Positions 6,921-19,874 of a stretch of DNA of 20,813 nt are shown piece by piece; positions within the stretch are counted from its first letter, which is position 1; every line of letters begins with the position of its first letter. This DNA is from Flavobacterium psychrophilum (lineage in GTDB: Bacteria > Bacteroidota > Bacteroidia > Flavobacteriales > Flavobacteriaceae). The position numbers and the translations under genes are program-made. The DNA is taken from positions 1-20,813 of the forward strand of contig CAMCTL010000051.1 in NCBI GenBank assembly GCA_945878515.1. Reading direction: 5' to 3'. The notes beneath the pieces were generated by a model. It made no database searches and had not been told where the DNA came from. It was given only the letters and a program-made list of their open reading frames with translations.

Positions 6921-7265
6921 TTATTTTACACATCCTTGGTTTTTCCAAAGTATGATCTTATCGATAGTTTGTTTTGACATTGCTCCACTTTGTGGCATTA
7001 CGCTACCGCAAGATTGGCTTTGATCTATTCTGCAAATTAGAGTTCCTCCTAGGGTAGATTCTTTTACTTGTTCATAAGTAGTCAAGTTTGGAAATTGTCC
7101 TCCTGAATGGCAACCTGTGCAATTTGCTCTAATTACAGGTTCAATATTGGCGGTATAAGTAGGATTTGGAACAGCTGTAGAAATTTCTTCGTAAGTTGTC
7201 GAAGTACAGGAATTCAGATAAATAACAGCGCTGACAAACAGTATAATTAGAATAAACTTTTTCAT
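6921..7265 (-). CDS. Monoheme c-type cytochrome lipoprotein
   Basis: A 114-residue protein with a lipoprotein signal peptide ending at Y-L-N-S-C (lipid-attached Cys20) and a single heme c motif C-T-G-C-H (49-53). The axial Met is probably Met90 in V-M-P-Q-S-G, with Met96 as the alternative. The C-terminal helix I-D-K-I-I-L-W-K-N-Q-G-C is typical of small cytochrome c domains that sit near membrane electron-transfer proteins. The remaining Cys residues (78, 86, 112) may form a disulfide. It lies between the YceI gene and the DUF5777 gene, 30 bases from the latter, probably in one operon. The redox partner is unknown. Confidence 0.88.
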   Translation of the reverse strand: MKKFILIILFVSAVIYLNSCTSTTYEEISTAVPNPTYTANIEPVIRANCTGCHSGGQFPNLTTYEQVKESTLGGTLICRIDQSQSCGSVMPQSGAMSKQTIDKIILWKNQGCVK

Positions 7266-16316: not shown

Positions 16317-16727
16317 CTATTTATGTTTTTCCGCTATTAATTCAGGTGCTGGTTCAGCCACATTCTTATAAACAATGGGATTCTTTGCTGATTGTTTGAG
16401 TGTGGCAATTTCGTTTTCTAGACGTTTAATTTTTTCCTCTTTCAGTTCTATAATTTGCAATCTGGCATCTGCGAGTTCTTTATAATTTGTTTGATCCGGC
16501 ACAAATTCATTTTTCAAAACACTTTTCAGCATTGACCCTTTTCCGGATAATAGCCATTCTGGATTAATTTCAGTACATTTTGTATATATTAATGCTGCAT
16601 CGTAAGTATTCCTTTTTTTCCATTTAGATAGATTTTGCGCAGGTATTCCGAGATGTTGTGCAAAATCAACATCTTTTTTATAATTATAATACTCTTGTAT
16701 CTTATTTAAAATCAAAAGTTTATCCAT
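16317..16727 (-). CDS. CI-like phage repressor (Mu c position)
   Basis: A 136-residue protein. Residues 1-65 match the phage CI repressor-type helix-turn-helix domain: D-F-A-Q-H-L-G-I-P-A-Q-N-L-S-K-W-K-K-R (21-39) is the HTH, and N-P-E-W-L-L-S-G-K-G-S-M-L (55-67) is its usual end. Residues about 85-113 form a Glu/Lys-rich coiled coil that would mediate oligomerisation. There is no LexA-type peptidase domain, so classic RecA-driven self-cleavage is not expected. It is transcribed leftward and opposes the Ner/Cro-like gene across a 106-base operator region. One operator copy lies inside its own coding sequence. Confidence 0.85.
   Translation of the reverse strand: MDKLLILNKIQEYYNYKKDVDFAQHLGIPAQNLSKWKKRNTYDAALIYTKCTEINPEWLLSGKGSMLKSVLKNEFVPDQTNYKELADARLQIIELKEEKIKRLENEIATLKQSAKNPIVYKNVAEPAPELIAEKHK
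16573..16584. promoter_or_regulatory. Operator copy inside the repressor gene
   Basis: GTACATTTTGTA is identical to the site at 16744-16755. It lies in the coding sequence of the repressor (codons around Y-T-K-C-T-E), about 170 bases from the main operators. Confidence 0.55.
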
Positions 16728-17248: not shown

Positions 17249-17452
17249 ATGAAACCAATCGTAATAAACATCACAAGTCTTATCGGTACAATGGTAATCA
17301 TTGGAGATAAAGAAAGTGCATCGGCACAAATTCAAGAAGCTGTAAACGATGCACTATTGAAAGTTGTAGCTACAGCTCGCAATTTGGAAAATCAAGAATC
17401 GTGTCCAGATAAAACTTCGTTGCAATCAAAAGACCTGAAAAATCAAGATTAG
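17249..17452 (+). CDS. Small early protein, 67 residues, unknown function
   Basis: Follows the 39-residue ORF by two bases. Residues 1-20 (MKPIVINITSLIGTMVIIGD) look like two beta strands, residues 25-48 like a helix (Q-I-Q-E-A-V-N-D-A-L-L-K-V-V), and the last 20 are hydrophilic. It may be a small phage-encoded strand-helix protein; not recognised. Its last 83 bases overlap an opposite-strand ORF (17370-17570), and one of the two may not be translated to its full annotated length. Confidence 0.55.
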   Translation: MKPIVINITSLIGTMVIIGDKESASAQIQEAVNDALLKVVATARNLENQESCPDKTSLQSKDLKNQD

Positions 17453-17570
17453 GATTTTCAAGAATTGCTTTTTCGCAGGCTAGTTTAAATTTTTCTGATT
17501 GAATATCATTTAATTCAACCCCTTTTAGCTCTAAAGTACGATTGTACAGTTTTAATGCAAGTTCAGTCAT
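17370..17570 (-). CDS. Possible small leftward gene, 66 residues
   Basis: An open frame on the minus strand that starts M-T-E-L-A-L-K-L-Y-N-R-T-L-E-L-K-G-V-E-L and continues with E-K-F-K-L-A-C-E-K-A-I-L-E-N-P-N-L-D-F. The composition is typical of a compact helical protein and unlike a chance frame. It fills a stretch with no plus-strand gene (17453-17570), and its 3' end overlaps the preceding rightward ORF. No promoter was found upstream of it. Family unknown. Confidence 0.5.
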   Translation of the reverse strand: MTELALKLYNRTLELKGVELNDIQSEKFKLACEKAILENPNLDFSGLLIATKFYLDTILDFPNCEL

Positions 17571-17612
17571 ATTACTATTATTTAAGATTAGACACCGTAA
17601 ATGTAGTAATTA

Positions 17613-17665
17613 ATCCGATACAGGTTGTCGCCTACAAGCGCAAGGTTCGAGTCCTTGGTCGGAAC
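17613..17665 (+). ncRNA. tRNA-like hairpin 1 (T-arm plus acceptor-like stem)
   Basis: CAAGG, TTCGAGT, CCTTG (17641-17657) is a canonical 5-bp, 7-base T-arm. The next bases GTCGGA (17658-17663) pair with TCCGAT (17614-17619) as an acceptor-like stem with one G-T wobble. Only about 21 bases lie between, so there is no room for both D and anticodon arms. It is not a normal tRNA; a tRNA-like structure or decayed tRNA is possible. Confidence 0.4.
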
Positions 17666-17707
17666 AAATTTCTCAAGGTAGTTTTAGCTCTTACCACAGC
17701 GTTGAAC

Positions 17708-17747
17708 TCCCGCCACGGCTTTGCTTGGTTTCGACACCAAGGCGGGA
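17708..17747 (+). ncRNA. tRNA-like hairpin 2 before the transposase gene
   Basis: TCCCGCC (17708-17714) pairs perfectly with GGCGGGA (17741-17747). Nested inside, directly against the 3' strand, is TTGGT, TTCGAC, ACCAA (17725-17740). The outline resembles the T-arm and acceptor stem of hairpin 1, and both are followed by ACAAATT. It is 18 bases before the transposase ATG and could affect its translation. Confidence 0.4.
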
Positions 17748-17765
17748 ACAAATTAAAAATAATCA

Positions 17766-19874
17766 ATGGAAAACCCATACGAATATTACGATAACAAGCT
17801 AGGTGTAAAACTCAAATTTTTGATTTTTGACCGCAGCAATCATCCAGATAGTTTAGAAGTTGTAAGCTACAGATCATTGAACTGGAGAATGCACTCTAAA
17901 ACCTGCGTAGAAACACAACTTCGCCGTGCCTCATTAAATTACGACGCCTTGGTACTTCACTCCTCCCTTTGTCAAGATTGGAAAGATAGCCTAACGCTAA
18001 AATTCGGAAAACCGAAAGAAGTTGTAAAAGCTTCGTTTTTTGCGCAGCATTATGAAGCAGATCGCAAAGCATTTGATTTTTATGCAGCCTACACGTATGG
18101 CGAAGACAATAAGAAACTCGATTTAAAACTTATTGAAACCTACACCTACAATGCCTCAGTAATGAATGCCGTGATTAATTGCAAAACAAATCGCAAAGCC
18201 TACATCAAAGCACTCGGTGGTGTTCAAGTCGATATGTGGCAATCACTCTCTAACGATGTGAACTGCTTTCGTGAGGTAGCTCACAATTTGCCAACCACTT
18301 CCAGAGGGTTGCGCATCCGGTACAATGAATTTTTGAAATACGGTTACGTTTCTTTTGTTTCTGGAAGGTTGCAGAACTCAAACGCTTCCGTTTTGAAAGG
18401 TGAGGAACAAACAGCGCTACTTGATGCACTGATTGCTTTGCCTAACAATTTTGACAATGCCCAAGTTGCCAGATATTACAACGAAGTGGCTATTAAGGCA
18501 AACTGGAAAACGATTACAGCGCAAACCGTTGGCAATAGAAAAGAAAAAATGCAGCTCACGATTACTGCTGGACGAAAAGGCATCAAAGCATTAGAAAACA
18601 CCCTTTTGATGCAAAACAAACGATCTGCCCCAAAAAATTCAATGCTATTGTGGACACTCGATGGTTGGAAAACAGAGCTGATGTATCAACAAACCTATAT
18701 AGATAAAAACGGCTACTCGACAACTACTTATTTCAACCGATTGACAACTGTGATGGTTATAGATCCAACGAATAAATACATCATTGGTTATGCTGTCGGT
18801 AAGGAAGAGAAGCCAGAATTGATAAAAGCGGCTTTGCGAAATGCTTTTCAGCATACTCAGGAGTTATTTGGCGAAATGTATCGTCCGTATCAACTACAAT
18901 CAGACAACTATCAAATTGCTAATCTAACACCAGTATATGAAGCCTGTTCGGATCGTTTTACTCCCGCAAAAGTTGGTAATGCTAAGGCTAAAGTAATTGA
19001 GCCTTTCTTTAAAGACTTCAATAAAAAACATTGTCAAAACAAACCTAATTGGTCGGGGTACAATGTTAGTTCAGGCTCAAAAAACCAACCAAATGTTGAT
19101 GCCATCAACAAAAACAAACGCTTTTTTCCAGATGAAATGGGTTTGCGACAACAAATAGACTCGATTATTGCAGCCGATAGAGCCGAAAAAATAAGTCAAT
19201 ACATAGAAAACTGGAATAGTACGAAAAACGAATTTAAATCGGTTTTAAACTTTGAAATGTACCTACGCTATTTAGGTGCAATGACAGGATACACAAATCG
19301 ACTAGAAGGACCAGGAGTATTAGCCACGCTCAACGGACAAAAACTAACTTATGACTGTTTTGATGTTAATTTTAGAAAACTAGCGCATCTGGATTGGGCA
19401 TTAAAATTTGACCCTCAGGATTTGTCGAAAGTTTTAGTAACCAATGCCAATTCAAGAAACGGAAAGTTAGTGGAAATCGTAGGAACCTACGAATTTCTAT
19501 TAGAGCAAAAACACATCCAACCAATGGCACTTGCCGAAAGAAACGAGGGTGATGCGTTGAAACTTATGGAAGTAAAAAATCACAATTTAGACATTCTGAA
19601 TTACATCACAGATGAAGTTTGCAAAAGAGACTTACTAAACGAAAGTCTTTTCAATAACCGCCCAGAACTCTTCAATGACACACTATCTAAACTTTTAATC
19701 ACCGATTCCCGAGGCCAACACAAAGACCACAAATCAGAAAACAGATTACAGGCCAATACACAACGCCTTATCGAAGTGCAAGCCACCTCAGACAAAAAAG
19801 AACTTTCAGAGAACTGGAACCACGACCAAGACGAATACAACAAACAAAAAATAGACTACTTAAACTACCTTTAA
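17766..19874 (+). CDS. MuA-like DDE transposase
   Basis: A 702-residue transposase of the Mu/retroviral-integrase (rve) type, which would cut the prophage ends and join them to target DNA during replicative transposition. The N-terminal 280 residues should hold the end-binding HTH domains (for example T-S-R-G-L-R-I-R-Y-N-E-F-L-K-Y-G, 178-193). The catalytic core shows D299 (L-W-T-L-D-G-W), D380 (L-Q-S-D-N) and E412 (K-V-I-E-P-F-F), with 31 residues between the last two. The C-terminal 200 residues are strand-rich, then charged. Length is close to MuA (663). The ATPase gene follows after one base. No strong ribosome-binding site is visible, as usual in this phylum. Confidence 0.9.
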   Translation: MENPYEYYDNKLGVKLKFLIFDRSNHPDSLEVVSYRSLNWRMHSKTCVETQLRRASLNYDALVLHSSLCQDWKDSLTLKFGKPKEVVKASFFAQHYEADRKAFDFYAAYTYGEDNKKLDLKLIETYTYNASVMNAVINCKTNRKAYIKALGGVQVDMWQSLSNDVNCFREVAHNLPTTSRGLRIRYNEFLKYGYVSFVSGRLQNSNASVLKGEEQTALLDALIALPNNFDNAQVARYYNEVAIKANWKTITAQTVGNRKEKMQLTITAGRKGIKALENTLLMQNKRSAPKNSMLLWTLDGWKTELMYQQTYIDKNGYSTTTYFNRLTTVMVIDPTNKYIIGYAVGKEEKPELIKAALRNAFQHTQELFGEMYRPYQLQSDNYQIANLTPVYEACSDRFTPAKVGNAKAKVIEPFFKDFNKKHCQNKPNWSGYNVSSGSKNQPNVDAINKNKRFFPDEMGLRQQIDSIIAADRAEKISQYIENWNSTKNEFKSVLNFEMYLRYLGAMTGYTNRLEGPGVLATLNGQKLTYDCFDVNFRKLAHLDWALKFDPQDLSKVLVTNANSRNGKLVEIVGTYEFLLEQKHIQPMALAERNEGDALKLMEVKNHNLDILNYITDEVCKRDLLNESLFNNRPELFNDTLSKLLITDSRGQHKDHKSENRLQANTQRLIEVQATSDKKELSENWNHDQDEYNKQKIDYLNYL

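Follow-up and report, generated by a model that had tools for sequence, protein, structure and literature searches.

Covarying tRNA-like elements before the transposase gene of a Flavobacterium Mu-like prophage and in the gene gaps of other phages: a possible form of mRNA punctuation

The mascRNA-menRNA RNAs, of which mascRNA comes from a mammalian long noncoding RNA, at its 3′ end, are excised by RNase P and RNase Z, and the C4 RNA of phages P1 and P7 and the CI RNA of phage P4 are phage transcripts cut by host RNase P. In plant mitochondria, tRNA-like structures in polycistronic gaps (t-elements), and tRNA punctuation generally, are described as setting the cleavage sites that make mRNA ends (PMC8003010). 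RNase P is reported to gauge how far the acceptor/T-arm stack extends between elbow and cleavage site and to pair with the tRNA 3′ end; the D-loop seems dispensable and a T-loop or similar loop required, and tRNA-like substrates other than tRNAs are listed (PMC4919913). RNase Z is described as recognising the elbow, formed by D-loop G18-G19 contacting the T-loop, and as acting on CCA-less pre-tRNAs (PMC4810234). A different kind of repeated, one-directional, intergenic element, the stoperator, occurs in cluster A-like and R4-like actinophages; eight or more are reported in R4-like phages (PMC10276819), and those of clusters A and CA are given as 13-14 bp repressor-site repeats (PMC13313380).

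Here we compare these systems with a locus of Flavobacterium psychrophilum. The window, that is the whole stretch of DNA analysed (20,813 nucleotides, contig CAMCTL010000051.1), closes with the apparent left end of a Mu-like prophage, which occupies its last 4.5 kb. This part carries a CI-like repressor gene on the minus strand (16317-16727; PF07022, E 1.5e-08) and a MuA-like transposase gene on the plus strand (17766-19874; phrog_310 transposase, E 6e-28, with tblastn matches to annotated MuA-like transposases), and its small early frames are without Pfam or PHROG family matches. Two tRNA-like modules on the plus strand, module 1 (17614-17665) and module 2 (17708-17749), sit between the MuA-like gene and a 66-aa minus-strand frame (17370-17570) directly upstream. 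This frame gave no Pfam or PHROG match, and no tblastn match at E<=1 in the collected loci.

In module 1, the acceptor stem pairs TCCGAT (17614-17619) with GTCGGA (17658-17663) through 6 bp, one of them G-U, and encloses first a linker (17620-17640), which has GG at 17623-17624 and might form a small arm TTGT/ACAA, and then a canonical T-arm, GGTTCGAGTCC (CAAGG-TTCGAGT-CCTTG, 17641-17657). Module 2 has a 7-bp acceptor stem, TCCCGCC (17708-17714) with GGCGGGA (17741-17747), enclosing the linker ACGGCTTTGC (17715-17724) and the T-arm TTGG-TTTCGACA-CCAA (17725-17740), whose 8-nt loop is a standard T-loop plus one. Each acceptor stem runs into A73-C74 (17664-17665 and 17748-17749), and the two modules share the 3′ end A-C-AAAT, which is direct repeat D1. 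Beyond module 2, an A+T-rich leader (17750-17765, plus strand) reaches to the transposase start. A preliminary description of this DNA had reported two tRNA-like hairpins, each with a T-arm-like hairpin on an acceptor-like stem, in a GC-rich region; re-reading the letters bore out the hairpins, and at 51.9% G+C, 17613-17747 exceeds its flanks, the preceding 200 nt having 29.0% and the following 200 nt 36.0%. Both modules thus have the acceptor stem and T-arm of a tRNA, and both lack a D-arm and an anticodon arm with a 7-nt loop.

ARAGORN and Rfam called no tRNA in the window, on which ground we rejected a functional tRNA gene there, and the only Rfam match, SNORD66 (E 6.3), is a chance match. 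Folding energies relative to shuffles are unremarkable (z -0.41, -0.68 and -1.08 for single modules, -0.05 for both together). Because folding statistics on single copies gave nothing, covariation among relatives was needed; comparing module 1 with module 2, from which selection for structure had initially been argued, would by itself be weak evidence. A 79-aa frame across the modules (17555-17794), raised earlier as the possible conserved feature instead, was rejected: it has no Pfam or PHROG match, and its best tblastn matches in the collected loci cover mainly residues 52-66, which are the module itself, and the MuA start.

Relatives of module 2 were gathered by IMG/VR pattern scans and from MuA relatives, and 16 copies, 15 of them distinct, were aligned. 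In this alignment 99.4% of the cells are paired, three pairs (five cells) are changed on both sides compared with 0.6 (0.7) in shuffles, and sliding the partner strand drops pairing to 36-59%. Specifically, the acceptor pairing CCCGCC/GGCGGG becomes CCCGTC/GACGGG in locus L007 and CCTGCC/GGCAGG in L163, and the outer T-stem pair is G-C, C-G, U-A or U-G within the family. Save for such paired changes the copies are near-identical, although MuA diverges (69% identity to the window gene in L002, 53% in L007). At the level of sequence comparison, the compensatory changes among relatives, which the preliminary description had proposed to look for, confirm module 2 as a real structure and bear out selection for structure there. 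For module 1 that claim would lean on its shape and on L165, which has a comparable tandem pair: a module-2 type is followed by a second type before MuA, with a TTG start 20 nt after the second copy. A covariance model of the GGCATACA family, CM R1, proved too narrow: across 80 sources it gave 11 matches at E<=0.1, six to the whole model and five to the T-arm only, the latter including module 1 (18.4 bits, E 0.029), and it missed module 2; under strict filters it matched 1 of 395 Bacteroidota genomes. Hosts seldom carry the window-type pattern: it is present in 2 of 397 Flavobacteriaceae genomes, both times near a MuA relative, while a MuA match occurs in 7 of the 397. In L012 and L013, near-identical element copies precede MuA-like genes whose N-termini differ strongly, as though the leader had stayed while the beginning of the protein was swapped.

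Leaders of MuA genes in other Mu-like phages were collected with L004, L019 and L016 as queries, one search contributing the best 80 of 175 stretches. With L006, L047, L059-L061, L066, L100 and L106 (gene start missing) and also L012 left out, 135 loci were entered, of which L023 and L037 were dropped for having less than 100 nt upstream; the 133 examined, each with at least 100 nt, include redundant ones (for example, L038-L040 share one leader), and L020 and L021 repeat L003 and L004. A T-arm of at least 4 bp with a TTCRANN loop lies within 100 nt before MuA in 30 of the 133, where 0.93 would be expected from the rest of those loci on both strands. The window is not among the 30, because module 1 lies further upstream and the loop of module 2 is longer. 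With a stricter T-arm (at least 5 bp, at least three of them G/C, within 2 kb upstream of MuA), the gene strand scores in 51 loci (54 hits) and the other strand in one (1 hit), leaving 82 of the 133 without. The element is thus dispensable, since these 82 loci do without it and L001, whose MuA is 70% identical, has none and leaves only some 40 nt from the upstream gene to MuA.

Among 29 distinct MuA-linked T-arms picked irrespective of GG, 19 have GG 5-10 nt before the T-stem, compared with a 26% background. The misses are mostly the eight full-length or long-linker forms; short forms have the GG in 19 of 21, the division into short and full tRNA-like forms being made by eye. Leaders with an AGCGANA loop, also recognised by eye, either lack the linker GG (L139, L143) or have it (L005). 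In L123, three T-arm elements stand on the gene strand 1310, 1151 and 704 nt upstream of MuA. The MuA leaders of L017, L078, L087, L124 and L125 have a similarly placed hairpin with loops GGCGGTG, GTCGGTG or GGCGGAG, possibly diverged forms.

The elements form a series: a complete-looking tRNA-Ser, then tRNA-likes whose anticodon arms are aberrant, and finally 40-nt "top halves". At one end, the complete-looking tRNA-Ser(GCT) at L036:1899-1985 scores 57.6 bits with the tRNA model RF00005 and ends 16 nt before a MuA-like gene. The element of L019, a Porphyromonas phage, keeps acceptor, D-arm and T-arm (45.2 bits), and further full-length forms score 46.7 (L018), 45.2 (L123) and 42.2 bits (L094). 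These forms precede MuA or another early gene, and in all but L036 the anticodon region is abnormal. By eye, a D-arm-like stem can be made out in L003/L004 and L008/L009, where the anticodon region is swollen; Rfam and ARAGORN called none of the four. Hankyphage-type phages place a tRNA-like element before an early gene other than MuA; in the hankyphage record BK010646 its T-arm occupies 1825-1841, 35 nt ahead of a gene at 1876. In L094, L098 and L111 a GCAA-capped stem, seen by eye, replaces the anticodon arm, with no normal anticodon loop. The Porphyromonas-type tRNA-like leader of L068 (approximately 1915-1985) has a large insertion in the anticodon region. Most other leaders are short, with acceptor, GG linker and T-arm, and short forms drew no Rfam 15 family at gathering score and no ARAGORN call in the loci scanned. 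To judge from the full tRNA-likes standing at the same place in L019, L009 and L036, the elements likely arose from real tRNAs. Of the earlier suggestion that the modules are tRNA relics, the origin is therefore retained, but not the decay, as the stems are kept by compensatory change.

The short element is widespread among phages. The pattern GGCATACANNNNGGTTCGAGTCC, which consists of linker and T-loop and leaves most stem letters open, retrieved 77 IMG/VR stretches, several with two to four copies, and yielded 69 distinct elements. Pairing holds for 605 of 621 cells in the nine open pair columns, compared with a shuffled mean of 335 and maximum of 363; over all 11 pairs, two of them fixed by the search pattern, 97.9% of the cells are paired against 62.5% in shuffles. 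Cells changed on both sides number 241 versus 68, a level reached in 0 of 500 shuffles. Letters fixed by the pattern carry no evidential weight in these counts. Additionally, a descriptor asked for an acceptor of 4-7 bp, a GG-containing linker of 8-16 nt, a T-stem of 4-7 bp and the loop [TA]TCRANN, with 10-12 bp in total; it gave 219 hits against 0 in reversed strings across both strands of the collected loci (3.58 million strand-bases, twelve duplicate loci skipped). The 219 are no census, because 184 come from contigs fetched with the element's own pattern; the others are from MuA loci (15), other MuA-type contigs (12) and annotated records (8). Of the 172 unique elements, 157 carry a purine at position 73 and 152 a C at 74, both positions that the descriptor leaves free, and in one element position 73 is followed by CCA.

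That these elements are hairpins arisen by chance, or functionless tRNA relics in decay, is hardly credible. Such a reading fits the unremarkable folding of the window copies and an acceptor shuffle test in which 3 of 31 reached p<0.05, a test of little power as 13 offsets were searched and full tRNA-likes included; it is contradicted by the paired fractions of both alignments, by the descriptor's excess over reversed strings, largely from pattern-fetched contigs though it is, and by the excess of T-arms before MuA.

In loci with several descriptor hits, all hits fall on one strand (39 of 39 loci), and this bias, together with the 54 hits to 1 upstream of MuA, speaks against a site acting at the DNA level. 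Up to 13 copies occur in one locus (L229), and stems differ among copies within one phage. Small tRNA mimics might act in trans by luring tRNA enzymes, nucleases or defence systems, with their placement secondary. The high copy number and the fact that the mimicked part of tRNA is described as being read by many enzymes (PMC4810234) speak for such decoys; the copies, however, occur one by one in separate gene gaps, on the same strand as the genes and with no array, and vary in their stems, and we hold a trans-acting role to be quite improbable.

A search of INPHARED with a 45-nt element listed 60 best places, all in Streptomyces phages, which nearly always have 5-8 each without annotation; the tail of the list consists of ordinary tRNA genes. 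A relaxed descriptor, with 0 hits in the reversed-string control, gave three chance-like hits nevertheless, one each in the left part of Lika, in hankyphage p00 and in TCUEAP3, and it is the relaxed form only that has a hit in Synechococcus phage S-RIP2. One IMG/VR contig with the element also has a Glutamine-II riboswitch (L222:3087-3139, minus strand, 54.7 bits).

Annotated actinophages show where the elements lie relative to genes. In the Streptomyces phage Lika (L246), all seven stand between annotated genes on those genes' strand; they begin 6-45 nt past the preceding gene, and the next start follows at 37-50 nt. The relaxed descriptor has one hit in the left 30 kb of Lika, inside a gene. 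In Sitrop, all seven strict elements are between annotated genes with the next start 34-52 nt on; the relaxed descriptor finds nine, 34-57 nt before the next start, and none in the left 37 kb. In the Mycobacterium phage Cborch11, seven relaxed-descriptor elements within 6 kb are all intercistronic, 45-49 nt before the next start. Two exceptions were met: an element of the Mycobacterium phage Weiss13 (L251:4001-4040) begins two bases before the annotated start of gene 79 and lies almost wholly inside that gene, whose start may be miscalled, with the true one further downstream; and in the Microbacterium phage Hubbs 170 nt separate the element from the next start. An annotated tRNA-Arg of Sitrop (L254:6907-6989; 41493-41575 of the record) overlaps a gene end and contains a short element at 6948-6987, and is probably a miscall of that element. 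Just before four of the seven Lika elements there is a separate repeated motif near CTGAGTGTGnAACCTTCGCA, which may be an R4-type stoperator or part of a promoter.

On the upstream side, 12 of the 14 Lika and Sitrop elements begin 6-18 nt past the end of the previous gene. A plain hairpin that stabilises the upstream message or shields its 3′ end, its tRNA likeness incidental or historical, would account for this proximity to the upstream stop; yet the kept loop, GG, purine 73 and C74 would be superfluous for it, and we regard it as very improbable. TTTT within 12 nt downstream is found for 8 of 172 elements, so the usual element is no intrinsic terminator, a candidate that we ruled out on this count; module 2 is followed by ACAAATTAAAAATAATCA.

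On the downstream side, an ATG opening at least 60 codons lies within 90 nt of 150 of 216 descriptor hits, compared with 345 of 1080 random positions, a measure that is blunt in G+C-rich genomes. Flavobacterial relatives (L158, L160, L163, L165 and L012) hold 12 descriptor elements, 11 of which have an ATG opening at least 66 codons 17-27 nt on, the twelfth being the L165 copy with the TTG start. The earlier idea of a structured, tRNA-like leader RNA for the transposase is supported by position and covariation, but its framing was too narrow, as elements also precede other phage genes and occur in actinophages. The nearness of the starts in flavobacterial phages, Lika and Cborch11, and the almost constant distance within Cborch11, would suit a translational element, in which an uncut mimic contacts the ribosome near the start codon or insulates the next start from upstream ribosomes, the more so as the ribosome is described as a reader of the elbow through the L1 stalk and L5 (PMC4810234). 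On the other hand, the start distance varies among host groups, purine 73, C74 and the missing CCA suggest maturation enzymes, not the ribosome, as the reader, and the Lika and Sitrop elements stay close behind the upstream gene, as if tied to the gap. We therefore consider a translational role unlikely.

The elements occupy the gaps of same-strand gene arrays, and for this reason we propose that they punctuate mRNA. Building on their observed structure, the selection on it, and their position, orientation and range, this proposal would have an early operon transcribed into one RNA, with the mimic taking its fold in the gap between cistrons. Host RNase P would then cut on its 5′ side, RNase Z after position 73, or both, separating the upstream message from the transposase message and releasing a small RNA. 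The mimic keeps what would serve as cues for the maturation enzymes, namely the acceptor/T-arm stack, the T-loop TTCRA, a linker GG that could stand in for D-loop G18-G19, and purine 73 with C, and it has lost or distorted what would be cues for translation, the anticodon arm and encoded CCA. In the window, a cut after A73 would give the transposase mRNA a short A-rich 5′ leader of about 17 nt, comprising 17750-17765. Co-transcription, cleavage, the enzymes taking part and the effect on expression are here what we infer. Against punctuation speak the start distance in all seven Cborch11 elements, whose constancy a pure cutting mark would not need, the Weiss13 and Hubbs exceptions, the single copies that fold no better than shuffles, and the MuA loci without a T-arm; in the window itself, co-transcription with the upstream gene is not evident because that gene is on the opposite strand.

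Taken together, we somewhat favour the reading that modules 1 and 2 belong to a widespread class of phage-encoded tRNA mimics that mark gene gaps and are cut by host RNase P and/or RNase Z. The broader proposal, for which we judge the chances to be evenly balanced, is that unrelated phages (Bacteroidota Mu-like, Streptomyces, Mycobacterium and probably others) share a way of punctuating mRNA with approximately 40-nt mini-tRNAs that lack the anticodon part, derive from tRNAs with intermediates still visible, sit on the transposase message in transposable phages, and are cut by host tRNA-maturation enzymes, which would give every early message ends of its own. If true, tRNA punctuation, known from organelles, would also be a device of phage gene expression, and tRNA end maturation, an essential housekeeping activity, would be tied to the expression of transposase and early genes. 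It would account for intergenic repeats that go unannotated in well-studied phages as well as for some odd "tRNA" calls and gene starts, and would add a new RNA family for annotation. Even without cleavage, a covarying mimic of the tRNA elbow before many phage genes calls for explanation.

We found no description of the elements in the open-access literature exclusive of preprints, which is weak as evidence, since structured-RNA surveys, including one of the human microbiome (PMC8040213), fell outside that scope. The word tRNA is absent from the main text of a hankyphage paper with RNA-seq of B. thetaiotaomicron jmh43 under repressor silencing (PMC12135933), and the R4-like phage paper mentions intergenic stoperators and, in the text available, not tRNA (PMC10276819). 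As far as this weak evidence of absence goes, the principle is known from organelles, whereas the element appears undescribed, as do its range and the use that phages make of it.

Among the known systems, the C4 and CI RNAs are single immunity RNAs rather than repeated gap elements, and Rfam gave no C4 match here. Stoperators, compared here in the form given for clusters A and CA, would not covary as stems, and unlike a fixed-sequence repressor site, the present elements vary in their stem letters with pairing kept. Full-length forms beside MuA or another early gene score as tRNA (RF00005), from which the short forms differ in having no anticodon region and in going uncalled. The closest RNA family, matched weakly, is mascRNA-menRNA (RF01684), whose tRNA-like structure likewise lies within a longer transcript and combines an acceptor and a T-arm with a D-loop-like GG; its best score, for the Sitrop element L254:3853-3898, is 27.0 bits against a threshold of 42.5, and it has no Rfam match in the window. 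By analogy, the closest working parallel is offered by t-elements and mitochondrial tRNA punctuation. As there, a tRNA-like structure occupies a same-strand gap for every element of Lika and Cborch11 and every strict element of Sitrop, the window differing in its opposite-strand upstream neighbour; the elements described here belong to bacterial phages, come several to a genome, measure approximately 40 nt, have shed the anticodon arm, and would, on the reading we favour, be cut in the same manner.
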